Shown in pieces: positions 6,695 to 48,670 of a stretch of DNA of 48,670 bases; position 1 is the first letter of the stretch; every line of letters begins with the position of its first letter. The notes under the pieces were generated by a model, which did not search any database, had not been told where the DNA came from, and saw only the letters and a program-made list of their open reading frames with translations. Both the position numbers and the translations under genes were made by a program. Location of the stretch: contig PAUN01000039.1 of assembly GCA_002712885.1 (NCBI GenBank), forward strand, positions 1 to 48,670, written 5' to 3'. Source of the DNA: Acidobacteriota bacterium. GTDB lineage: Bacteria > Acidobacteriota > Vicinamibacteria > Vicinamibacterales > UBA8438.

Positions 6695-7990
6695 ATGAAT
6701 GTCAGATCGTTCGTCGTGACCGTGCTGCTGGTTGTGGTAAGCCACGGGCTCGCCGCGCAGGAACTCCCGACCGCGCCGGCGGTGCAGCTCGGGCTCTCGC
6801 CGGTCCGTCTCGAGCAGATCAGTCTGCTGGTGGAGGACGCGGTGGATCGACAGGAAGTGTCTGGCGCCGTCACCCTCGTGGCCAGGCTCGGGCGGGTCGC
6901 GCACCTCGAGGCGGTGGGGTGGCGCGATGTCGAGCGGCAGGCATCGATGGAGACGGACACGTTGTTCCGGATCGCCTCTATGACCAAGGCGGTCACCAGC
7001 GTGGCCGCCATGCAGCTCTACGAGTCGGGTGAGCTGATGCTCAACGATCCGGTGTCGCGCTATCTGCCTGCCTTCGGGGAGATGCAGGTGTTGACCCGAG
7101 CCTCCGACGGCGGAGAGGCCACACTCGAGTCATTACGTCGCCCGATCACGATTCGGCATCTGCTGACGCACACCTCCGGTCTCAGCTACCGGTTTCTCGC
7201 CCCGCCACTGTTAGCCGCACGGTATATCGACGCCAATATCACCGATGGTCTGAGTCAGGCTGACGGCACCATCGGTGACATGGTCGACCGTTTGGCGGCA
7301 CTGCCGCTGCTGCATCAGCCGGGTGAGCGCTTTACCTACAGCCTCGGCGTGGACGTGCTGGGACGCGTGATCGAGGTCGTGACCGGCCAGACGCTCGCCG
7401 AGTACATGGCGGCGGAGATTTTCGAGCCCCTCGGGATGGTCGATACCGCGTTCTACAAGAGTTCGTCGGAGGCCGACCGCTTCGCGGCGATTTATTCGCC
7501 GCTGGGTGACGGCATCGTGAAAGTGACAGAGGACCCGGTCGTCAGTTCCGACCAGCGAACCATCTATTCGGCCGGGTATCCGTATGGCGAGGCCCAAGGA
7601 TACTTTTCGGGTGGGGCGGGGCTGACGTCGACGATTTCAGACTACGCGCGTTTTCTTCTGGCCATGCTGAACGGCGGGGAGTTGGAGGGGGCCCGCATTC
7701 TGGGTCGCCGCACGGTGCAGCTCATGACGCGGGACCACCTGGTCGGGCTCGGGGTCCCTCCGGGCGGGCAACAGTTCGGGCTGGGGTTTTCGATTTCCGG
7801 AGAGCGTGGCGTGACCGGGGGACCGCGGTCCGAGGGCGCGTTCGGCTGGCTCGGGTTCTTCAACACCGTCTATTGGGTCGACCCGGAAGAGCAGCTGGTG
7901 GCGATCATCATGACCCAGCTCTACCCGAACAATCAGTCACAACTGACCGACAAATTCGAGGTTGCCGTCTACAGCGCCATCCTCAATTGA
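6695..7990 (+). CDS. serine hydrolase, class C beta-lactamase family
   Basis: SxxK motif in FRIASMTKAVTSVAAMQLYE; YSLG (YxN-like); start at 6695 after the upstream stop at 6681. Confidence 0.85.
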   Translation: MNVRSFVVTVLLVVVSHGLAAQELPTAPAVQLGLSPVRLEQISLLVEDAVDRQEVSGAVTLVARLGRVAHLEAVGWRDVERQASMETDTLFRIASMTKAVTSVAAMQLYESGELMLNDPVSRYLPAFGEMQVLTRASDGGEATLESLRRPITIRHLLTHTSGLSYRFLAPPLLAARYIDANITDGLSQADGTIGDMVDRLAALPLLHQPGERFTYSLGVDVLGRVIEVVTGQTLAEYMAAEIFEPLGMVDTAFYKSSSEADRFAAIYSPLGDGIVKVTEDPVVSSDQRTIYSAGYPYGEAQGYFSGGAGLTSTISDYARFLLAMLNGGELEGARILGRRTVQLMTRDHLVGLGVPPGGQQFGLGFSISGERGVTGGPRSEGAFGWLGFFNTVYWVDPEEQLVAIIMTQLYPNNQSQLTDKFEVAVYSAILN

Positions 7991-8073
7991 GTTTTCTCGA
8001 CGAGGCGCTCGCCTGGACTGCGTTGTTTCCTCGGTCACAGCCCGCCTGGCTGGGCCTGCCTCAGGCGGGGCTG
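7990..8073 (+). repeat. stop-abutting palindromic repeat, family 1 (copy D, degenerate)
   Basis: TGA|GTTTTCTCGACGAGGCGCTCGCCTGG...CTCGGTCACAGCCCGCCTGGC; internal CCCGCCTG...CAGGCGGG stem. Confidence 0.6.
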
Positions 8074-20239: not shown

Positions 20240-22216
20240 ATGACCCTACGAAGTTGTCGGTTCACGCGAGCGCTTGGTGTCTGCCTGGTGTTCGGGAGCG
20301 TCACCTCGACGGCCGTGGCCCAGCCCGGTGCGCGGGACGGTGAGTGGCGGCACTATGGCGGTGACGAGGCCAACACGCGCTACTCGCCACTCGATCAGAT
20401 CACCGCCGACAACTTCAGCGAACTGGAGCTTGTCTGGCGGATGAAGACCGACAACTTCGGTCCCGTGCCCGAGTACAACTTTCAGTCGACGCCGTTGATG
20501 GTTGGTGGCGTGGTCTACTCGACCGTTGGGACCCGGCGGTCCGTGGTCGCGGTGGACGCAGGTACTGGCGAGTATCTGTGGATGCATCGCCTGGACGAAG
20601 GCGAGCGGGCGGAGGAAGCGCCACGTCGGCTCTCCGGTCGCGGTCTGGCGTATCGCGACAACGGTGGGAGCGGGCAGATCATCTACGTTACGCCCGGCTA
20701 CCGAATGATCGCGCTCGATGCCGTCACCGGGCAGCGAATCCCGAGCTTCGGCACCGACGGCATCGTCGACCTGATGCAGAACATGGATCAGGACATCGAC
20801 CCGATTGCCGGCGAGATCGGTCTCCATGCCACACCCCTCGTTGCCGGTGACACCATCATCGTCGGGGCCGCGCATGTGCCGGGGAGCGCGCCCGAGTCGA
20901 TGCGGAACACGAAGGGCTACGTGCGCGGGTTCGATGCCGACACCGGCGCACGCAAGTGGATCTTCCACACGATTCCCGGTGGTGACGAATTTGGCAACGA
21001 CACCTGGCTCAATGAATCGTGGCGGTATACCGGGAACAACGGTGTCTGGGGCCAGATCAGTGTCGACCTCGAGCTCGGCATCGTCTATCTGCCGACCGAG
21101 ATGCCCACGAACGACTACTACGGAGGCCATCGCCACGGCGACAATCTATTCTCGGACAGCATCGTGGCGGTGGATCTCGAGACCGGCGAGCGGGTGTGGC
21201 ACTTCCAGGCGATTCATCACGATGTCTGGGACTGGGACTTTCCCTGCGCGCCGGTGCTGGTCGACGTGGAAATCGAGGGCCGGCCGGGCATTACGAAAGT
21301 CATCGCGCAGCCGAGCAAGCAGAGCTGGCTGTATGTGCTCGACCGGGAGACCGGTGAACCGATCTGGCCCATCGAGGAGCGACCGATGCCGGCGTCCGAC
21401 GTGCCGGGCGAACTGCTGGCTCTGACCCAGCCGTTTCCCACTAGGCCACCCGCCTACGACCGACAGGGTGTGAGCGAAGACGACCTGATCGATTTCACCC
21501 CCGAGCTACGGGCCGAGGCGCTGGAGCGGGTCTCGAACTTCGGGATGGGACCAATTTTCACCCCGCCCGTCGTCGCCGACCCCGATGGGTCGTACGGCAC
21601 GCTGATGCTGCCCTCGACCGGCGGCGGTACGAACTGGCCCGGCGGGTCGGTTGACCCGGAGACCGGTATCTTCTACCAGTACTCCTTCACGACGATGGTG
21701 TCTCTCGGGCTGGTCAACGATCCCGAGCGGTCGGATATGGACTTCATCCGCGGCAACCCGGCCGGCGTGGCGCCCCGCGATCGCGCTTTGACCATCCGGG
21801 GCTTGCCCCTCGTGAAGCCACCATGGGGACGAATCAGCGCGATCGATCTCAAGACGGGCGACATCCTGTGGCAAATCGCTCACGGTGAGACCCCGGACAA
21901 CGTGCGGGAGCATCCCGACCTGCAGGGCCTCGACATTCCTCGGACCGGCCGGATCGGTCGCGTCGGCACCCTGATCACCAAGACCCTGGTCATCGCCGGT
22001 GAGCCCGGAACGTTCACGACCCCGTCCGGCGAGCGTGGCGCCATGCTGCGCGCCTACGACAAGGTCACCGGCGCGGAGGTCGGCGTGGTGTTCATGCCGG
22101 TCGGGGTGTCCGGTTCGCCAATGACCTACATGCACGAGGGCGCGCAATACATCGTCGTCGCCACGAGTGGCGGCGGCCAGGCGGGGGAACTGCTCGCGTT
22201 TCGGTTGGGGGAGTAG
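20240..22216 (+). CDS. PQQ-dependent dehydrogenase (quinoprotein, no fused heme domain seen)
   Basis: GEWRHYGGDEANTRYSPLDQITADNFSELELVWRM...; HHDVWDWDFPCAPVLVDV; GVSGSPMTYMHEGAQYIVVATSGGG. Confidence 0.92.
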   Translation: MTLRSCRFTRALGVCLVFGSVTSTAVAQPGARDGEWRHYGGDEANTRYSPLDQITADNFSELELVWRMKTDNFGPVPEYNFQSTPLMVGGVVYSTVGTRRSVVAVDAGTGEYLWMHRLDEGERAEEAPRRLSGRGLAYRDNGGSGQIIYVTPGYRMIALDAVTGQRIPSFGTDGIVDLMQNMDQDIDPIAGEIGLHATPLVAGDTIIVGAAHVPGSAPESMRNTKGYVRGFDADTGARKWIFHTIPGGDEFGNDTWLNESWRYTGNNGVWGQISVDLELGIVYLPTEMPTNDYYGGHRHGDNLFSDSIVAVDLETGERVWHFQAIHHDVWDWDFPCAPVLVDVEIEGRPGITKVIAQPSKQSWLYVLDRETGEPIWPIEERPMPASDVPGELLALTQPFPTRPPAYDRQGVSEDDLIDFTPELRAEALERVSNFGMGPIFTPPVVADPDGSYGTLMLPSTGGGTNWPGGSVDPETGIFYQYSFTTMVSLGLVNDPERSDMDFIRGNPAGVAPRDRALTIRGLPLVKPPWGRISAIDLKTGDILWQIAHGETPDNVREHPDLQGLDIPRTGRIGRVGTLITKTLVIAGEPGTFTTPSGERGAMLRAYDKVTGAEVGVVFMPVGVSGSPMTYMHEGAQYIVVATSGGGQAGELLAFRLGE

Positions 22217-24018: not shown

Positions 24019-24318
24019 TTGACACTCGAAAAGATCACGGAGGGCATTCGGGGCCGCGTTGGCACGCGATCGCCGATTCCCGCTATCGTGAAATTTGATT
24101 TTGGGGACGACGGTGTTGTCCGGGTCGACGGCAAATCCACGCCAACCGTCGTTGACAATGAGGACCGCGAAGCCGACTGTACGGTGAAAGTGATCATGGA
24201 TGATTTTGTCCAGATCGCGCAGGGGACGATCAATCCGCAGATGGCATTCATGACCGGCAAGCTGCGGGTCGAAGGCGACGTCAGTCTGGCCATGCAGTTG
24301 GGTGCCATTCTCAAGTAG
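24019..24318 (+). CDS. SCP2 sterol-binding domain protein
   Basis: FDFGDDGVVRVDGKSTPTVVDNEDREADCTVKVIMDDFVQIAQGTINPQMAFMTGKLRVEGDVSLAMQLGAIL; start uncertain (TTG 24019 proposed). Confidence 0.82.
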   Translation: MTLEKITEGIRGRVGTRSPIPAIVKFDFGDDGVVRVDGKSTPTVVDNEDREADCTVKVIMDDFVQIAQGTINPQMAFMTGKLRVEGDVSLAMQLGAILK

Positions 24319-24320
24319 CA

Positions 24321-24352
24321 CGCCAGGCCAGCGGGCGCCTCGTCAGAAAACC
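24321..24352 (-). repeat. stop-abutting repeat, family 1 (copy F, minus orientation, truncated)
   Basis: Reverse complement after the SDR stop: TGA|GGTTTTCTGACGAGGCGCCCGCTGGCCTGGCG; fills nearly the whole gap between two convergent stops. Confidence 0.6.
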
Positions 24353-25156
24353 TCAGGTCACCGATGTGCCGCCGTCTACGGGGATGATGGCGCCGTTGGT
24401 ATAGGCGCCGGCCCGTGAGGCGAGGTAGATCGCGATTCCCGCCATCTCTTCCGGACGTCCGATCCGCCCCAGCGGGCAGTTCCGTTCGATGTCGTCGCGG
24501 AAACGATCGAGGGACCCCTCCGTCATCTTGCTTTCGAAGAACCCCGGAGCAATCGCGTTGACCGTGATATGGCGTGGGCCCAATTCTAGGGCCAGCGTCT
24601 TGCTCATATGGTGCACTGCCGCCTTGCTGGCCGAATACGAGAACGTGCCCGTCTGCAGGACCGTCGGCACTTTGAGACCGTCCATCGAGCCGATGTTGAT
24701 CACCCGTGCGGGGTCGTCCGGCGCGGCACCGGCCGTCAGCAACGGCGTGAGATCGCGGGTAAGAAAGAACAGGGCCGTCACGTTGAGTCCGAGCACCTTA
24801 CGAAACCCATCTTCGGGGAACGTCTCGTAGGGCGCACCCCAAGCGGCGCCTGCGTTGTTGACCAGAATGTGCAGCCGATCGATGCGTTGCCCTAGCGTTT
24901 CGATGAGCCGCGCCCGGTCCGCGTCATCGGTGATATCCGCCGGCAGCGAGTGGCAGGGTCCGAGGGCCGATAAGGTAGCGGCGACCTCGTTACAGACGGC
25001 CGCCTTGCGGGACGAGATGTAGACGGTCGCGCCCGCCCGCACATAGCCCTCCGCGATCATCTTGCCGATCCCGCGGGAGCCCCCGGTGACCAACGCGGTT
25101 TTTCCGCTCAGGTCGAACAGGGTGGAGACGTCGATGGTGTTGTCGTGGGGGGGCAC
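24353..25156 (-). CDS. SDR family oxidoreductase
   Basis: GKTALVTGGSRGIGKMIAEGY; NNAGAAWG; YSASKAAVHHMSKTLA. Confidence 0.93.
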   Translation of the reverse strand: MPPHDNTIDVSTLFDLSGKTALVTGGSRGIGKMIAEGYVRAGATVYISSRKAAVCNEVAATLSALGPCHSLPADITDDADRARLIETLGQRIDRLHILVNNAGAAWGAPYETFPEDGFRKVLGLNVTALFFLTRDLTPLLTAGAAPDDPARVINIGSMDGLKVPTVLQTGTFSYSASKAAVHHMSKTLALELGPRHITVNAIAPGFFESKMTEGSLDRFRDDIERNCPLGRIGRPEEMAGIAIYLASRAGAYTNGAIIPVDGGTSVT

Positions 25157-25928: not shown

Positions 25929-26029
25929 GGTGTCCCCCGAGAATCTGGTTGCGCGCGGTGGTCGTGCCAAGTATAGAGCGGAGCGGTGACCCGGGCGTCC
26001 TGCGTGCGACCCGTGTCGTTAGGGATCGT

Positions 26030-26172
26030 CACGAAATAACAGCGACATTTCTGGGTGTCGATGCATCCCGCGCGACCGTGTTGCTCGTCGCTTGCATACT
26101 CCCCGTATGCGCACTCCTCGCGCCTGGTCGGGCGCGTGCCTCGACACCCAGAAATGCCGCTGTTATTTCGTG
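26030..26172. repeat. 143-bp palindromic element with 36-bp terminal inverted repeats
   Basis: 26030-26065 CACGAAATAACAGCGACATTTCTGGGTGTCGATGCA versus 26137-26172, which reads CACGAAATAACAGCGGCATTTCTGGGTGTCGAGGCA on the other strand: 34/36 identical. Central GCATAC-tccc-GTATGC stem. Confidence 0.85.
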
Positions 26173-26753
26173 GTGGGCCCTTGCTCGAGGTGACGGGCGC
26201 AGGCGGACAGTCGAACCGTCCAGGGAGGAGTCGGGTCGATGATGGTGACTGACGTGTTGCGGAACCGCACGGGCTGCGTCGCATCGTCGCCGTAGGTGAG
26301 GTGCAACTCGGTGAGCGCTCTGATCACGAGGCCATGCGTGACGACGGCGACCCGCTCGGTGCCCCCGTGGGCGACCGAGCCGACGTGCGCCCACGCCCGG
26401 GCGACCCGCGCGAGGAAGACGGGCCAGGCCTCCCCCCCGGGTGGGTCATGATCTGGTCCGAACAGCTGGTGCTCCACACCCGCATATGGATGTCCGTCCA
26501 GCGTGCCCAGGTCCCGTTCGCGTAGCAGTGGGGTCAGCTCCGTTGGGATCGTGCCGGTGACATCCAGCGCGGCTGCCGTGCGGCGAGCGCGAGGGTAGTC
26601 GCTGCTGAGAATTTTGGTTAGACCAACCTCGGCCATCCGAGCCCCGAGCCGCTTGGCCTGTTGGGCGCCGATGGCGTCGAGCGGCGTGTCCGGGCGCTGC
26701 ACGACCCGCGCGGCATTGAGCGCGGTTTGACCGTGCCGAATCAGATAGATCAT
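26163..26753 (-). CDS. histidine phosphatase family protein
   Basis: MIYLIRHGQTALNAARVVQRPDTPLDAIGAQQAKRLG; LLRERDLGTLDG; VVTHGLVIRAL. Confidence 0.92.
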   Translation of the reverse strand: MIYLIRHGQTALNAARVVQRPDTPLDAIGAQQAKRLGARMAEVGLTKILSSDYPRARRTAAALDVTGTIPTELTPLLRERDLGTLDGHPYAGVEHQLFGPDHDPPGGEAWPVFLARVARAWAHVGSVAHGGTERVAVVTHGLVIRALTELHLTYGDDATQPVRFRNTSVTIIDPTPPWTVRLSACARHLEQGPTTK

Positions 26754-28714: not shown

Positions 28715-29875
28715 ATGGATTTCCGGCTCACGGAAGAGCAGCAGGCGCTGCAGGCGGCGGCGCGCGACTTCGCGCGGGGCGAAATGACCGCCGTGGCGGA
28801 ACAGATCGAGACGGATGCGACGCCGCTTTCGCGAGAGTGGCTGCGACGGTATGCCGAGATGGGGTTCCTCGGGGTGAATGTTCCGGCGGCCCTTGGTGGC
28901 CTTGGATTGGGAAACGTCGACGCGTTTCTGGTGCTCGAGGAATTCGCCAAGGTGTCGTCCGCCGTGGCGTTTCCGATCTTCGAGTCGGTGGCGGGACCGG
29001 TGCACGCCCTAACGCACTTCGCCGGCGAGGGTTTGAAGCAACGGGTGATTCCGGCCGTGTGCCGCGGAGAGATGATCGTGGCGGTGGCGATGTCGGAGCC
29101 GGATGCCGGGACCGCGCTGACCGATCTGCGGACTCGCGCGGAGGTGCGCGACGACCGGGTCGTCATCAACGGGACCAAACGCTGGTGCTCCGGAGGCGGG
29201 CACTCGGACGCCTACCTCGTGTACTGCCGGTTGTCCGATGCGTCAGGCGCCAAGGGGATTGGCGCCGTGTTCGTCGACAAAGGTACGGCGGGACTCACGT
29301 TCGGAGAGCAGGAACGGCTGATGGGGTTCCGGGGCATTCCTGACTCAGATCTCTACTTCGACGAGGTGTCGGTGCCGGCTGACCAGGTCGTGGTGCCGGC
29401 CGGGGGCTTCCCGAAGCTGATGCAGGCGTTCGACCTGGAACGGTGTGGCAACGCCACCATGGCGTTGGGTCAGGCCTCTGGTGCGCTCGAAGAGGCGTTG
29501 GTCTGGGTGCAGGACCGCCGGCAGTTCGGGAAGCCGATCATTGAGTTTCAGGCGGTGCAGCTGAAACTGGCCGAGATGGCGATGCGGGTCGAGGCGTCGA
29601 GATTGCTCATCTACCGTGCCGCCCAGGGGGCGGAAGGTGGGTTGCCGTCGATTCTCGATTCGAGCATCGCCAAGTGCGTGGCGAACGAGGCGGCGCGGGA
29701 GGTGACGAGTGCCGGGGTTCAGCTGATGGGGGGCTACGGCTATTCGCGTGATTATCCGATGGAGCGGCGGATGCGGGATGCCTGGGGATGGGGGATTGCC
29801 GGCGGCACCATCGACATCCAAAAGGTGAATATCGCGTCGGCCCTCGCCGGCCGGCGCTTCGACCAGCGCAAATAG
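28715..29875 (+). CDS. acyl-CoA dehydrogenase family protein
   Basis: MDFRLTEEQQALQAAARDFARGE...AVAMSEPDAGTALTDL...VINGTKRWCSGG...DRRQFGKPIIEFQAVQLKLAEMA...GGYGYSRDYPMERRMRDA. Confidence 0.93.
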   Translation: MDFRLTEEQQALQAAARDFARGEMTAVAEQIETDATPLSREWLRRYAEMGFLGVNVPAALGGLGLGNVDAFLVLEEFAKVSSAVAFPIFESVAGPVHALTHFAGEGLKQRVIPAVCRGEMIVAVAMSEPDAGTALTDLRTRAEVRDDRVVINGTKRWCSGGGHSDAYLVYCRLSDASGAKGIGAVFVDKGTAGLTFGEQERLMGFRGIPDSDLYFDEVSVPADQVVVPAGGFPKLMQAFDLERCGNATMALGQASGALEEALVWVQDRRQFGKPIIEFQAVQLKLAEMAMRVEASRLLIYRAAQGAEGGLPSILDSSIAKCVANEAAREVTSAGVQLMGGYGYSRDYPMERRMRDAWGWGIAGGTIDIQKVNIASALAGRRFDQRK

Positions 29876-29910
29876 GTTTCCTGGCGAGGCGTCCGCCTGG
29901 CGGCGGTGCT
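29875..29910 (+). repeat. stop-abutting repeat, family 1 (copy C, truncated)
   Basis: TAG|GTTTCCTGGCGAGGCGTCCGCCTGGCGGCGGTGCTT directly after the acyl-CoA dehydrogenase stop. Confidence 0.65.
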
Positions 29911-29923
29911 TCCCGGTGGTAGC

Positions 29924-30633: not shown

Positions 30634-31419
30634 ATGGCACATCTGGATCTGCTCAACCTACGTGGGAAAGTGGCCGTGGTCACCGGGTCGTCCAAGGGGA
30701 TCGGCCGGGTCATCGCCGAGACATTGGCCGAGGCCGGAGCTCGCGTCGTGGTCTCCAGTCGTCGAATCGATAGTTGTCAGCCCGTGGCTGACGCGATCAA
30801 CGCGTCTGGCGGTGAGGCAGTGGCCATTCCGTGTCACATGTCTCATCTCGACCAGGGCCGAGCCCTCGTCGACGGCACCCTCGAGCGTTGGGGGCGTGTC
30901 GATGTTCTGGTGTGCAACGCCGCGGTTAATCCGGCCTACGGCCCGATGGCCGACGTCACCGAGGCGGCCTACGACAAGGTCATGGCCACGAACGTGAAGC
31001 ACAACTTGTGGCTGTGCAACCATGTGCTGCCGCAGATGGCGAAGCGCAAGGACGGGGCGGTCATCATCGTGTCGAGCATCGCGGGTCTCAAGGGGAACGA
31101 CGCACTTGGGATCTACGGCATCTCGAAGGCAGCCGATTTTCAGCTGGCGCGCAACCTGGCGGTGGAGTGGGGTCGCAGCAACATCCGCGTGAACTGTATT
31201 GCGCCGGGGCTGGTGCGCACCGATTTCGCGCGGGCGTTGTGGGAGGATCCGGAGCAGCTTGCTGAAGTGATTTCCACGTATCCGCTCGGTCGGATCGGGG
31301 AGCCGGACGACCTGGCGGGTGCGGCGTTGCTGCTGGCGTCACCGGCCGGGCGGTTTATCACCGGTCAGATACTGGTCGTCGATGGCGGCGCCACAATCGG
31401 GTCAGGTCGATACAGTTGA
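30634..31419 (+). CDS. SDR family oxidoreductase
   Basis: GKVAVVTGSSKGIGRVIAETLAEAG; NAAVNPAYGP; YGISKAADFQLARNLAVEWG; start at 30634 preferred over upstream ATGs. Confidence 0.92.
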   Translation: MAHLDLLNLRGKVAVVTGSSKGIGRVIAETLAEAGARVVVSSRRIDSCQPVADAINASGGEAVAIPCHMSHLDQGRALVDGTLERWGRVDVLVCNAAVNPAYGPMADVTEAAYDKVMATNVKHNLWLCNHVLPQMAKRKDGAVIIVSSIAGLKGNDALGIYGISKAADFQLARNLAVEWGRSNIRVNCIAPGLVRTDFARALWEDPEQLAEVISTYPLGRIGEPDDLAGAALLLASPAGRFITGQILVVDGGATIGSGRYS

Positions 31420-32281: not shown

Positions 32282-32623
32282 ATGAATACCCAAATCTTTC
32301 TGTTGCTCCATTTGACCTCGGTGATTCTTCTGGCCGGGGTTACGTTCGCGGCGCTCGCCGGCCCCCACTCCGACAAGCGCCGGCAGTTCCTGATGATGTC
32401 CGGGACGCTCAGTCTGCTGGCCGTTATGAGCGGGTTCGGCCTCGCGGGAATGATGGGGATCGGGTTTCCGGGGTGGATCATGGTGAAGGTCGTCTGCTGG
32501 CTCGCTTTGTCCGTTTTGACCGGGATGGCGTTCCGGATGAGCGGTCAGGGCCGGATGCTGGCGACCGTCGCCGCCGGGGTCATCCTGCTCGCGGTGATCA
32601 TGGTCACCTACAAACCTTTCTAG
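32282..32623 (+). CDS. hypothetical small membrane protein
   Basis: 113 aa with four hydrophobic helices. Confidence 0.6.
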   Translation: MNTQIFLLLHLTSVILLAGVTFAALAGPHSDKRRQFLMMSGTLSLLAVMSGFGLAGMMGIGFPGWIMVKVVCWLALSVLTGMAFRMSGQGRMLATVAAGVILLAVIMVTYKPF

Positions 32624-32729
32624 GTTTTCCTGACGCGGCGTCCGCCTGGCGGCATTGCCTCGTCGGTCACAGCCTGCCTGGCTGCTCCCTCCTTGCGCCT
32701 TGCCAGGCGAACGCCTCGCCAGGAAAACC
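32623..32729 (+). repeat. stop-abutting palindromic repeat, family 1 (copy A, full length)
   Basis: Left arm 32623-32650 GGTTTTCCTGACGCGGCGTCCGCCTGGC; right arm 32702-32729 GCCAGGCGAACGCCTCGCCAGGAAAACC; 25/28 complementary. Left arm overlaps TAG of the preceding gene. Confidence 0.85.
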
Positions 32730-32936
32730 GGGGCGCGGCGAGGGGTGTGTGGCGGCGTTGGGGTCCCAGCCCGCCTCGCGGACGCAGAGTGGAGCACGCG
32801 TCCTCGGAGACGAACCGGGTGCCAACCCTCCACCGGAGGGGCGTCGACCCTTTGGGCAGAGCGTCGTCGCGACTTTCGATGACGGGTGGGCGCAGGTTGG
32901 GCGATGAGACGTTTCTCCTGAAGAGGTCGCGCGCCC

Positions 32937-33998
32937 CTAGCTGCTCATCAGTTGAACGCCTTTGTGAGCCAGGTCTCGGACGCGCTCGTCGTAGCCGGCG
33001 AACCGCTCGTCTTGCGTCTGTCCGCGCACATAGCGGATATAGATCTGCTGGACGATGACCACCAGCTTGAACACGCCGAAGACGTGATACCACGCGATCG
33101 CGTCCAGGTCTAATCCGGTGCGTCTGGCGTAGCGCTCGACCACCTCCGCTCGGCTCGGGAATCCCTCGTGATTGGTCGGCATCTTGGATACGTGATGCCA
33201 GCGAGGATCATCGGTCGCCTCGTTCCAGAAATTGAGGAGGTAGCCGACGTCCATCAACGGATCGCCCCGCGTGGTCATGTCCCAGTCGAGCACGGCGACC
33301 GGCGTCGCCGGGTCCGCGACGTCCACCATCAGATTGTCCAGCTTGTAGTCGTTGTGCAGGAGCGTCGTGATCTGGGGTGTCGGAATCGACGCGTCCAACC
33401 AACTCAGCATCTCGTCGACGTCGGCCACCGCCTCGTGCTTTGCCGCCAGCCAGCGACGACCCCACCCGTCGACCTGTCGCCGCGCGAAGCCGTCGGGTCG
33501 GCCCAGGTCGCCCAGACCGACATCAGCCGGGTCTACCCGATGTAGGTCGGCGAGCACGTCGACAAGCATCTCCCCGATACGCCGGTTGACCTCTGGCTTG
33601 CCGACGAGGTGCGGCGGAAGCTCGCTGCGGATCACGCTCCCGTGCCGTCGTTCCATCACGTGGAAGTCGACACCAAGCACCGCCGGGTCCGTGCAGAGCG
33701 CGTAGCTGGTCGGTGCGAGCGGAAACGCCTCGCCCAGGCGGCGCAGCACACGGTGTTCTCGCTGCATGTCGTGCGCGCTCGGGGCGATGGGACCCAGCGG
33801 CGGTCGCCGCAGCACGTACTCGTCGTTGCCGAAGTGCAGCAGGTAGGTCAGGTTGGCGTGTCCACCACCGAACTGTTGCAGCGTGAACGGCCCATCCGCG
33901 TGAGGCAGATGCGCCCGCAGCCACGGCTCGAGTCGGTCCGGCTTGAGCCGCTCGTCGGCCCGAACCGCGATGACCTCGGGATCGTCCGGCGAAGTCAC
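32937..33998 (-). CDS. phosphotransferase family protein (APH/ACAD10-11 N-domain-like)
   Basis: FTLQQFGGGHANLTYLLHFGNDEYVLRRPPLG; LLHNDYKLDNLMVD; VAVLDWDMTTRGDPLMDVGYLL; GTG start 33998 proposed, just after the thiolase stop. Confidence 0.9.
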   Translation of the reverse strand: MTSPDDPEVIAVRADERLKPDRLEPWLRAHLPHADGPFTLQQFGGGHANLTYLLHFGNDEYVLRRPPLGPIAPSAHDMQREHRVLRRLGEAFPLAPTSYALCTDPAVLGVDFHVMERRHGSVIRSELPPHLVGKPEVNRRIGEMLVDVLADLHRVDPADVGLGDLGRPDGFARRQVDGWGRRWLAAKHEAVADVDEMLSWLDASIPTPQITTLLHNDYKLDNLMVDVADPATPVAVLDWDMTTRGDPLMDVGYLLNFWNEATDDPRWHHVSKMPTNHEGFPSRAEVVERYARRTGLDLDAIAWYHVFGVFKLVVIVQQIYIRYVRGQTQDERFAGYDERVRDLAHKGVQLMSS

Positions 33999-34005
33999 GA
34001 TCCGG

Positions 34006-35187
34006 TCACGCAATCTCGAACAGGCCGGCCGCGCCCATCCCGCCACCGATGCACATGGTGGTCACCACGTAGCGGGCCCCGCGGCGTTTGCCCTCGATCA
34101 GGGCATGACCGACCATACGGGCCCCACTCATACCGTAGGGATGGCCGATTGAAATGGAACCACCGTCGACATTGAACCGTTCCATCGGGAGGCCGAGCCG
34201 GTTCCGACAGTAGATGACCTGTACTGCGAACGCCTCGTTGAGCTCCCAGAGGTCGATGTCGTCGGTCGTGAGCCCATTCCGCTCCAGGAGCTTGGGCACC
34301 GCGAACACCGGGCCGATCCCCATCTCGTCCGGCTCGCACCCGGAGACGACCAGACCGCGGTAGACCGCGAGCGGAGCGACCCCCCGTTGGGCGGCAAGTG
34401 CCCCGTCCATCACGACGCAGGCCGACGCGCCATCAGACAGCTGGCTGGCGTTTCCGGCGGTCACGCACTTACCTTCGCCCCGGACCGGAGTCAGCCCGGC
34501 CAGACCCTCGAGCGTCGTGCTTGGACGATTGCCTTCATCTTGCGTGAGAGTAACTTCTTCATCAGACGTCTCGCCGGTCTGTTTGTTCATCACCAGCTTG
34601 GTAGTGGTCAGTGGCACGATCTCTTCATCGAACCGGCCGGCCTCCTGCGCCGCCGCGGTGCGCTGCTGGCTCACTAGGGCGTATGCGTCCTGGTCGTCAC
34701 GGCTGATCGAGTAGCGCTGCGCGACCACCTCGGCCGTGTCGATCATGCTCATCCACAGTTCCGGCTTGTGCTGTATCAACCACGTTTCGGTGAAGTGCTC
34801 CTGATTCAAGCTGTTCTGCACCAGGCTGATCGACTCGACACCGCCCGCCACCATGACCGGCACCCGGTCCGTGAGGACCCGCTGAGCGGCCACGCTGATG
34901 GCCTGGAGCCCCGAACTGCAGAATCGGTTGATCGTCGTGCCTGCTGTGGTCACCGGCAGCCCGGCCCTGATCGCGGCCAGCCGGGCGACGTTGTGTCCCG
35001 TCGCCCCTTCCGGCAGACCACAACCCATGATGACGTCCTCCACCTCGGCCGGGTCGACCCCGGCCCGCTCGATCGCATGGGCAATGGCATGGCCAGCCAG
35101 CACGGCGCCATGCGTCTTGTTGAACGCCCCGCGGAAGGCCTTTCCGATCGGTGTTCTGGCGGTGGATACGATGACGGCGTCTGACAT
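34006..35187 (-). CDS. acetyl-CoA acetyltransferase (thiolase)
   Basis: [20 protein letters not shown]; catalytic [53 protein letters not shown]. Confidence 0.95.
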
Positions 35188-35256
35188 GCGAAGCTCCTCG
35201 TCGTGCCGCGGCAGCGCGGCTTGCGGCGCCTATACTAGCAGGCGGCGGGAGGGTTT

Positions 35257-35280
35257 GGACGCAGCCCCGTCTCAATGAAG
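35257..35280 (+). repeat. short repeat family 2, copy R1
   Basis: GGACGCAGCCCCGTCTCAATGAAG; inverted copy at 35951-35973. Confidence 0.6.
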
Positions 35281-35368
35281 GCGGCATCGTCTCCCAGGCG
35301 CGCGACAATGCGCGCCCCGCGGCGGCGGAGTGGGGCTCCCAGGGGTCCCCGCGCGGCCGCGTAGGGTT

Positions 35369-35395
35369 CGGGGCGTAGCCCCGACTGGATGAGGT
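35369..35395 (+). repeat. short repeat family 2, copy R2 (diverged)
   Basis: CGGGGCGTAGCCCCGACTGGATGAGGT, with TCGGGGC-gta-GCCCCGA hairpin, just upstream of the MaoC start. Confidence 0.4.
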
Positions 35396-35399
35396 TTCT

Positions 35400-35858
35400 A
35401 TGCGTGTGATCAACGGCTTGGACGAACTCGACGCGCTCGCCGGCACCGAGTTGGGGGCCAGCGACTGGCTCACCATCACCCAGGACATGATCGACCGGTT
35501 CGCCGACGTCACGTTGGATCCGCAGTGGATTCACGTGGACGCAGACCGCGCAGCGCGCGAGTCGCCTTACGGGACGACGATTGCGCACGGCTTTCTGACC
35601 CTGTCGCTGATCCCACACTTTCGGCAGCAGATCGCCGAAGTGCGCGGTGTTGCCAGGGCGATCAACTACGGGGTGAACAAGGTGCGGTTCCCCAGTGCCG
35701 TACGGCGGGACGCGCGGGTCCGTGGAGTGCAGACCCTGCTGACAACCACCCGCGTGGCGGCCGGGACCATTCGCCTCACCAGCCAGTTTGTGGTCGAGGT
35801 CGAAGGCGAGACGAAGCCGGCCTGTGTGGCCGAGACCGTCACCATGGTCTTCGCCTAG
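35400..35858 (+). CDS. MaoC family dehydratase
   Basis: GASDWLTITQDMIDRFADVTLDPQWIHVDADRAARESPYGTTIAHGFLTLSLIP; hot-dog-fold hydratase signature. Confidence 0.93.
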   Translation: MRVINGLDELDALAGTELGASDWLTITQDMIDRFADVTLDPQWIHVDADRAARESPYGTTIAHGFLTLSLIPHFRQQIAEVRGVARAINYGVNKVRFPSAVRRDARVRGVQTLLTTTRVAAGTIRLTSQFVVEVEGETKPACVAETVTMVFA

Positions 35859-35948
35859 GTTTCCTGGCGAGGCGTTCGTCTGGCGGCATTGCTTCGTCGG
35901 TCACAGCCCACCTGGCCGCTCCCTCCTTGCGCTTGGCCAGACGAACGC
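35858..35948 (+). repeat. stop-abutting palindromic repeat, family 1 (copy B)
   Basis: TAG|GTTTCCTGGCGAGGCGTTCGTCTGGC...; perfect 13-bp stem GCGTTCGTCTGGC (35872-35884) / GCCAGACGAACGC (35936-35948). Confidence 0.8.
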
Positions 35949-35950
35949 GA

Positions 35951-35973
35951 CTTCATTCAGACGGGGCTGCGCC
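35951..35973 (-). repeat. short repeat family 2, copy R3 (inverted relative to R1)
   Basis: Minus strand GGCGCAGCCCCGTCTGAATGAAG, beginning in the TAG stop of the minus-strand acyl-CoA dehydrogenase; 20/21 core identity to R1. Confidence 0.6.
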
Positions 35974-37187
35974 TAACTGGGAGCGGTCCCCTTCTTGAGT
36001 TCAATCCGGGCGACTGCGCGCCGGTGCACCTCGTCGGGCCCGTCGGCCAGCCGCAGATACCGCGCGTGAACCCAGGCCGCCGCGAGTCCGAAGTCGTCAC
36101 AGACGCCGGCACCTCCATGCAGCTGGATCGCGCGGTCGATCACATTGAGCGCCATGTTTGGCGCGACAACCTTGATCATCGCGATTTCAGCTCGCGCGAA
36201 CTTGTTGCCGACCGTATCCATCATGTGGGCGGCATTGAGCGTCAGCAGGCGCGCCTGGTCGATCTCGATCCGGGAGTTGGCGATGGCCTCCATCACCACA
36301 CCCTGCTGAGCCAGCGGACCACCAAACGCCACCCGCGACTTGGCCCGGGCGCACATGGCCTCGAGTGCTCGCTCGGCGAGGCCGATCAAACGCATACAAT
36401 GGTGAATGCGCCCCGGTCCCAGGCGGCCCTGCGCGATTTCGAATCCGCGGCCTTCGCCCAGCAGCACGTCCGTCGCCGGGATCCGCACATTCTCGAACGT
36501 GACCTCGAAGTGCCCGTGGGGGGCATGATCGTACCCGAACACCGTCAGGGGGCGAACCAGTGTCACTCCCGGCGCGTCGGCCGGCACCACCACCATCGAC
36601 TGTTGCTTGTGCTTGGCCGCGGTGGGGTCGGTCTTCCCCATCAGGATGAAGACTCTGCAGCGTGTGTCGCCGGCGCCTGACGCCCACCACTTGTGCGCAT
36701 TGACCACATAGTGGTCTCCGTCGCGCTCTATGCGGGCCTCGATGTTCGTGGCGTCCGACGAGGCCACGGCCGGTTCGGTCATCGCGTAGGCGGACCGGAT
36801 GCGGCCTTCCAGCAGAGGACTCAGCCACCGCTCCCGGTGTTCGTCCGTGCCGTACCGGACGAACACCTCCATGTTGCCGGTATCCGGCGCGGCGCAGTTA
36901 CAGGCCTCCGGGGCAATGTCAGAGCGCCCGAGAATCTCGCACAGCGGCGCGTACTCGACGTTGCTCAGCCCCGCGCCCAGCTCGCTGTCCGGTAAGAACA
37001 GGTTCCACAACCCGGCGGCACGAGCCTGCGACTTGAGCGTCTCCATGATCGGCGGCGACTCCCACCGGTTTGCGGTGGCGGAGACCTGCTTGGTGTAGAC
37101 CGCCTCGTTCGGGTAGATCGCGTCGTCCATGAATGTGAGCAGGCGCTGACGCAACGCATCGGTGTGAGGAGAGGTGGAGAAGTCCAT
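35973..37187 (-). CDS. acyl-CoA dehydrogenase family protein
   Basis: [41 protein letters not shown]...[49 protein letters not shown]. Confidence 0.93.
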
Positions 37188-47452: not shown

Positions 47453-48670
47453 ATGAGGAACAGGACATCGAGACGTGCGGCGGCGGCGATAGCGTGGCTG
47501 CTTGGCACCGCCCTGTCTGTCGTGCCCGCCGCGGCCCAGCACGGCGCGGCCGACGGCCAGTGGGCGAGCTACGGTGGCGACGATGGCAGCACCAAGTATG
47601 CGCCGCTTGACCAGATAGACGCCGACAACGTCGACCAGCTCGAGCTGGCCTGGCAGTGGGTGTCGGCCGACAACCCCATCCTCGCCCAGAACCGTGAAAT
47701 TCGTTCACAGGGGTTCAAGGGCACCCCCCTGATGGTCGACGGCGTCCTGTATGTGCGGACGTCGCTCAGTATCGTGGCCGCGATCGACGCTGCGACGGGA
47801 GAGCAACTCTGGGTACGCGACGTCGGGAGTTATGACGCGGGACGTCCGACCAACCTTGGGTTCAATACACGGGGCGTGGCGCACTGGTCAGACGGGGTCG
47901 AGTCCAGAATCTTTCTGGCGACCGGCGATTCGCATCTCTGGTCATTCGACGCCGCCACGGGACAGCCGATCGGTCGTTTCGGCGCCGACGGCAAGATCGA
48001 CCTGACGCAGGGGCTTCGGCGAGAGGCGACGCGTGGCGCCTACCAGGTGATGTCACCGCCGATGGTGGTTGGCGACGTGGTCGTCGTGGGGTCCTCGATC
48101 TCCGACGGCCCGATGAATATGACCGCTCCTCCGGGAGACATCCGCGGGTTCGACGCGCGCACCGGCGAACTTCTATGGACGTTTCACACCATCCCGCAGC
48201 CGGGCGAGTTCGGCCACGATACGTGGGAGGACAACTCCTGGAGCTACACTGGGAACACGAACGTGTGGACTGTCATGAGCGCCGACCAGGACCTGGGGTA
48301 TGTGTATCTGCCGATCGGCACCCCGACCAACGACTGGTATGGCGGGCACCGTTTGGGGGACAACCTGTTCGCGGAGAGTCTGGTCTGTCTGGACGCCGCT
48401 ACCGGCGAGCGAGTGTGGCACTTCCAGATGGTGCACCACGGACTGTGGGACTACGACCTACCGGCGGCGCCGACACTGGTCGACATCTCCGTCGAGGGCC
48501 GCGACATCAAGGCGGTCGCGCAGGTGAGCAAGCAGGGGTTCACCTATGTGTTTGACCGGGTGACCGGCGAGCCGGTCTGGCCGATCGAGGAACGACCGGT
48601 GGCGCAGTCGTCGGTGCCGGGGGAACGGACCTCGCCGACCCAGCCGTTTCCCACGAAGCCTCCCGCGTTC
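47453..48670 (+). CDS. PQQ-dependent dehydrogenase, 3' end truncated by window edge
   Basis: Frame open from ATG 47453 to the end (absent from the ORF track because it has no stop): signal peptide, [35 protein letters not shown]..., [18 protein letters not shown]; similar to 20240..22216. Confidence 0.92.

Follow-up and report, generated by a model that had tools for sequence, protein, structure and literature searches.

A hairpin repeat lying on stop codons in a marine Acidobacteria genome: probable insertion of a mobile palindrome at CTAG

In this marine Acidobacteria genome a hairpin repeat of about 100 bases, here called family 1, occurs in roughly 200 copies, many of them beginning on or directly behind a stop codon. 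We propose, with a probability of about three in four, that family 1 belongs to the non-autonomous mobile palindromes (MITE- or REP-like) and inserts at CTAG. The placement pattern is non-random and is best read as the outcome of target choice together with selection on a mobile palindrome.

The window, that is the whole 48,670-nucleotide stretch of DNA analysed, is contig C46 of G000, a marine genome bin of Vicinamibacterales type (3.83 Mb, 82 contigs, ~65% GC). A 16-nt left-arm probe, allowing up to 3 mismatches, matched it six times against 0.42 expected. The relevant features of the window are:

7990-8052, plus strand: family-1 left-half fragment (profile 39 bits, model 2-63)
24319-24352, strand ambiguous: one-arm family-1 remnant (24337-24352 on the minus strand matches the 16-nt left-arm probe exactly)
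25999-26203, no strand assigned: long palindrome of a related family, an inverted repeat with 67-nt arms
29874-29913, plus strand: family-1 left-arm fragment (profile 21.8 bits, model 2-41)
31417-31419, plus strand: TGA stop of an SDR gene, element-free here; the G003 orthologue (L134/L270) has TAG and a family-1 element
32624-32728, plus strand: complete family-1 hairpin (profile 98.5 bits, model 3-107)
35857-35950, plus strand: near-complete family-1 element (profile 86 bits, model 2-95)

The preliminary description had reported repeats that begin at stop codons, and all five junctions that it named are found in the sequence: TGA followed by GTTTTCT at 7988, CTGA followed by GGTTTTCT at 24355 on the minus strand, TAG followed by GTTTCC at 29873 and again at 35856, and TAG followed by GTTTTCC at 32621. 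It had counted them as five clear copies; the five sites stand, but only one copy is complete and one nearly complete, the other three being fragments or remnants. The complete hairpin starts right behind the TAG stop (32621-32623) of gene 32282-32623 and is predicted to fold with -62 kcal/mol (z -5.4). At the corresponding site of the sister genome G003 there is a TGA stop and the family-1 copy is absent. The near-complete element overlaps the TAG stop (35856-35858) of a MaoC-like gene (35400-35858), where G003 has TAG and then a different repeat. The left-half fragment shares the final base of the TGA stop (7988-7990) of a Beta-lactamase-domain gene (6695-7990). The left-arm fragment sits on the TAG stop (29873-29875) of an acyl-CoA dehydrogenase gene (Pfam), whose orthologues retain the C-terminus LAGRRFDQRK/R and carry behind their stops a family-1 copy, a remnant, another palindrome or nothing. 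The remnant at 24319-24352 does lie, as described, between two convergent stops, namely TAG 24316-24318 (plus) of an SCP2-domain gene and TGA 24353-24355 (minus) of a short-chain dehydrogenase gene. Its orientation, given there as minus, is ambiguous, however: each arm is an inverted copy of the other, and the profile gives a weak 8.7 bits on the plus strand, opposite to the probe match, so that no strand can be assigned. The element-free TGA at 31417-31419 corresponds in the outgroups G022 and G006 to TAG without an element. Within the long palindrome, the centre (26068-26154) resembles the family-1 core (22.5 bits, model 21-105).

Two further repeats were observed in the window. A separate repeat at 35940-35976 (TTAGACGGGGCTGCGCCCCGAACCCCACG...) also lies behind several stops elsewhere, often adjoining family 1. 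A 151-nt direct repeat (21303-21453 and 48516-48666, 76% identical) lies within two paralogous coding regions, and the gene family that holds it has several more copies in the genome.

Aligned copies define the family-1 unit as an imperfect hairpin of 105-107 nt, or 105-135 nt when the tail is counted. Its inverted arms, ~27 nt long, start with GTTTYC and end with GRAAAC; they are variable, while the core, consisting of TCGGTCACA, a 5-bp hairpin and TGCTCCCTC, is near-invariant. Length differs between copies by indels, with no conserved frame and no coding capacity. Family 1 is thus short, non-coding and bounded by terminal inverted repeats, as MITEs are, and it is high-copy, extragenic and near gene 3' ends, as REPs are. 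Many copies carry a tail of ~25 nt that makes the right end of this form non-inverted; it ends ...TTCAGCAACCTG beside CTAG, or reads ...CGGACGTTTTTCAGCAACCTG and then CTAG, with the terminus also written ...CAGCAACCTG. Units are also arranged head to tail with YTAG in between, and two short derivatives (L369, L361) retain the hairpin foot and tail only. The ends do not fit GTTRRRY, the end consensus of integron attC sites, and an attC identity was rejected. We also rejected a known RNA family, as Rfam gave nothing at the gathering threshold in the window and nothing at E <= 1 in 32500-36100.

The consensus with tail is predicted to fold with -70.5 kcal/mol. Among 26 copies, stem-pair covariation lies above shuffled and slid controls: 35 cells are altered on both sides, against 11.5 in shuffled and at most 14 in slid alignments, part of this excess being expected as the structure was taken from one of the tested sequences. 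In the same copies the inner hairpin is 98% paired despite sequence change (CAGCC/GGCTG, CATGC/GCATG).

The preliminary description had considered chance placement unlikely and proposed a genome-wide check of distances to stops. We carried this out by profile search of 1.17 Mb of G000 (the window and 12 further contigs, whole or nearly so), with genes called by our own codon-usage script. Of 75 matches, 53 retain the left end, and in 34 of these the left end lies -3 to +5 nt from a same-strand stop, where a random intergenic placement model predicts 1.8 (P about 6e-37); chance was accordingly rejected. The remaining left-end copies, which may include cases of missed genes, are found at greater distances from a stop or downstream of a gene start. 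Twenty-four of the 34 stop-sited copies lie between convergent genes, a setting that makes up 32% of gene ends across the genome (P 6e-6). Enrichment at stops is repeated in other Vicinamibacterales/Acidobacteria MAGs, many contigs of which match the degenerate core pattern. One Treponema-labelled contig also matched this pattern, with no left-end copy on it among the matches listed. In the isolate PW8.metabat2.112 (JAPYUM) the loci are identical to those of the same-genus G003, with ~92% DNA identity to G000.

Orientation had been described as always sense to the upstream gene. Among 53 tailed full-length units from several genomes, 23 have a same-strand stop at the left end alone and 4 an opposite-strand stop at the right end alone; in 7 both ends are so placed and in 19 neither, the last class possibly including small genes that were missed. 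The sense bias of 23:4 is therefore real (P = 3e-4) but is not a rule.

The stops concerned are of a particular kind. TAG is used at 26 of the 34 sites, against a background of 41% (P 3e-5), and the base before it is C in 20 of the 26, compared with 37% for TAG stops overall (P 4e-5); a further 4 sites read GTAG. This base occupies the wobble position, where termination or translation does not predict a C, whereas a CTAG target does. A preference for the base before TAG is predicted by a target sequence and by no other reading considered here. The preliminary suggestion that insertion favours stop-proximal sequence, one of two alternatives given, is thus supported as regards targeting, but the target appears to be CTAG, sometimes GTAG or TTAG, rather than the stop codon as such. 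In the 1.17 Mb, CTAG occurs at about half its trinucleotide expectation; outside elements it is found 253 times within genes, 127 times on stops and 156 times at other intergenic positions. Unrelated palindrome families, beginning TAG-CAGCCCGTGG and TAG-TGTCCYGT, also lie behind cTAG, and repeats begin behind 13.6% of TAG stops versus 3.7% of TGA stops (P 2e-7). As separate observations, TAG makes up 41% of stop codons although the genome is 65% GC, and other long palindromes occur at NTAG (CTAG-CAGCCCG..., GTAG-CACTGCCGGTCAC..., TAG-TGTCCYGT...), some with the family-1 core; their loci are 25999-26203 of the window, C11:41179-41336 and C37:78335-78507 of G000, and L189.

Flanks on the right are less uniform. 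The pairs are GTAG/GTAG at L119/L260, GTAG/TTAG at C37:11953 and CTAG/CTAG in several tailed units, and ends perfectly flanked by TA/YTAG are seen at C63:55600 and L012; many right flanks differ from the left. Among tailed units, YTAG stands on the right about equally often with or without TAG on the left, so the right-hand CTAG may be part of the element itself.

We then compared sites in G000 with those of the sister genome G003 and the congener G001. At one intergenic site G003 has CTAG where G000 reads GTAG-[insert]-TTAG, and TAG is already present in element-free orthologues at C39, C13, C2, C17:15869 and C28:188123. One gene, ending ...SVH and TAG in both species, carries the element in sense in G000 and in antisense in G003, which we read as separate insertions, independent in the two species, at a single stop codon. 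Sites are common to the species at C11:51300, C28:188123 and L018, while most differ between the sister species; such turnover is easier to reconcile with mobility than with an indispensable terminator. Several observations count against insertion at CTAG as a full account: roughly half of the empty orthologues compared end in TGA or TAA (TAA at C35, L018 and C17:119540), some copies differ by 0-3 nt in the spacing from TAG to the hairpin foot, and no clean target duplication emerged from the flanks. The TGA and TAA ends may be due to stop drift or, for TAA, to TA joining the element's first G to give TAG.

A comparison of C-termini among orthologues, which the preliminary description had also called for, showed them unaltered in the great majority of cases, with lengths unchanged; truncation by the element was therefore rejected as a rule, with one exception. 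At L144 in G003 a gene runs in frame into the element and stops at a later TAG, so that the C-terminus seen at C37:123026 in G000 is replaced. Sequences that resemble excision or deletion footprints (CTAG-GTA-CTAG and TAG-GTTTCCT remnants at stops) were noticed at L198 in G016, which is the thiolase/acyl-CoA dehydrogenase locus, and at L402 in G003. A SECIS-like recoding element behind the stop was rejected on inference from the indel-variable lengths and the site turnover.

Insertion at CTAG, occasionally at GTAG or TTAG, is thus strongly supported, and it suggests how the distribution could arise. CTAG is scarce, and many of its copies lie in coding sequence, where an insertion would break the gene. 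About 45% of the non-coding CTAGs consist of C and a TAG stop, and an insertion there would leave the protein intact. From the target counts and purifying selection, survivors would be expected to pile up on TAG stops, above all between convergent genes. The enzyme responsible would act in trans. The 23:4 sense bias is more than a symmetric CTAG target alone would account for; mild selection for a hairpin in the 3' UTR or a strand preference of the enzyme could lie behind it. More broadly, and as a speculation that we consider rather doubtful, several palindrome families of the clade might have a conserved, covarying core and a CTAG target in common and be served by one unrecognised trans-acting machinery for which C+TAG stops are safe harbours, adding to the high TAG usage of these genomes.

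It might instead be that the repeats are kept as RNA devices at 3' ends (as terminators, as barriers to exonucleases, or as REP-like hairpins slowing ribosomes at stop codons), selection maintaining their stop-adjacent sense position. The very stable hairpin, the covarying stem pairs, the sense bias and the convergent-pair excess would all suit such a role, and REPs lying less than 16 nt from a stop are reported to reduce translation in E. coli (PMC12306157). The covariation is equally explicable as a requirement of the mobility enzyme, however, and a device acting in RNA explains neither why C precedes TAG nor why TAG is preferred to TGA; moreover, most sites are not common to sister species. 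Nor does family 1 have the U-tract right behind the stem that marks an intrinsic (Rho-independent) terminator: tailed copies have a T-run ~10 nt past the stem and untailed copies none. We consider this explanation very unlikely as the cause of the placement. As a secondary role, a terminator or stability hairpin is possible in view of the strong fold, the sense bias and the convergent-pair excess, and a side effect on expression is plausible by analogy with the E. coli REPs.

Two further proposals concern only the enzyme that moves an element inserting at CTAG. A REP/RAYT-type (HUH, Y1) enzyme, which would insert the unit as single-stranded DNA beside a TAG-containing tetranucleotide, is compatible with a CTAG target and would suit the NTAG at the hairpin foot, the asymmetric tail, the head-to-tail arrays and the sense bias. 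RAYT-like genes are indeed present in G003, G009, G022, G001 and G002, but their neighbours are other REPs (GTGGCGCACGGCTT..., GTAGCAAGGCCCTT...) and not family 1, and Y1_Tnp is absent from G000 (94% complete), G010, G011, G016 and G017, all of which have family-1 matches. We regard such an enzyme as unlikely, and the RAYTs found were rejected as movers since they carry other REPs. These RAYT-like loci (L299, L320 and L391 in G003, G009 and G022; L319 and L314 in G001 and G002) have their own REPs, of the GTGGCGCACGGCTTYAGCCGTGCG and GTAGCAAGGCCCTTCAGGGCC types, unrelated to family 1. A DDE element that targets TA or YTAG (IS630- or IS5/IS701-like) is a better candidate, although we would put it at somewhat less than even odds. 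Here the element's first G and the duplicated TA would form the TAG stop, so that TAA and TAG would both be safe targets, as the TAA of the three empty orthologues would suggest. The GTAG on both sides at L119/L260, the NTAG on both sides at C37:11953 and the perfectly flanked ends at C63:55600 and L012 agree with this, and IS630 is described in PMC2170065, where Tenzen and Ohtsubo (1991) is cited, as favouring TA within CTAG. Against it, the right YTAG is about as common without as with a left TAG, and G000 and G003, whose copies are the youngest, lack IS630-type DDE_3, for which reason IS630 was rejected as a resident mover. Searches for Y1_Tnp, for IS630-type DDE_3 and at tail-end loci found no transposase or autonomous partner with family-1 ends, the tail ends leading to units, short derivatives and unassigned sequence only. 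We infer that a DDE-type mover is the likelier enzyme class.

Taken as filled and empty sites, family 1 illustrates that target preference combined with purifying selection can put a mobile repeat on stop codons with proteins unaltered, a placement that otherwise mimics a dedicated 3'-UTR function. Uncultured marine Acidobacteria thereby gain an abundant repeat family with young copies. A literature search found no paper on family 1. Among known systems the GTAG REPs come closest: Di Nocera et al. 2013 (PMC3733652) report them chiefly from gaps between convergent or same-direction genes, where they often supply the TAG stop, and family 1 likewise is abundant, intergenic and downstream of genes, with a TAG tetranucleotide at its foot that is often the stop of the neighbouring ORF. 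REPs, however, are 20-40 bp long with GTAG (or GGAG) and RAYT-linked (PMC3733652, PMC2817692, PMC8266576); family 1 measures 105-135 nt, has a conserved core, prefers CTAG and shows no link to a RAYT gene, and for these reasons we do not file it as a REP. With IS630/Tc1-mariner elements and their MITEs it shares the TA-in-CTAG preference and inverted-repeat ends beside TA; it differs from them in that G000 and G003 have no IS630-type transposase, that the searches of DDE_3 and tail-end loci gave no autonomous partner as a MITE would have, and that many right flanks differ from the left. The mycobacterial MIRUs are small, sense-oriented repeats on stop codons, found in overlapping stop-start codons within operons. 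Family 1 resembles them in being small, on stop codons and in sense, and differs in lying on TAG, mostly between convergent genes, and in forming long hairpins.
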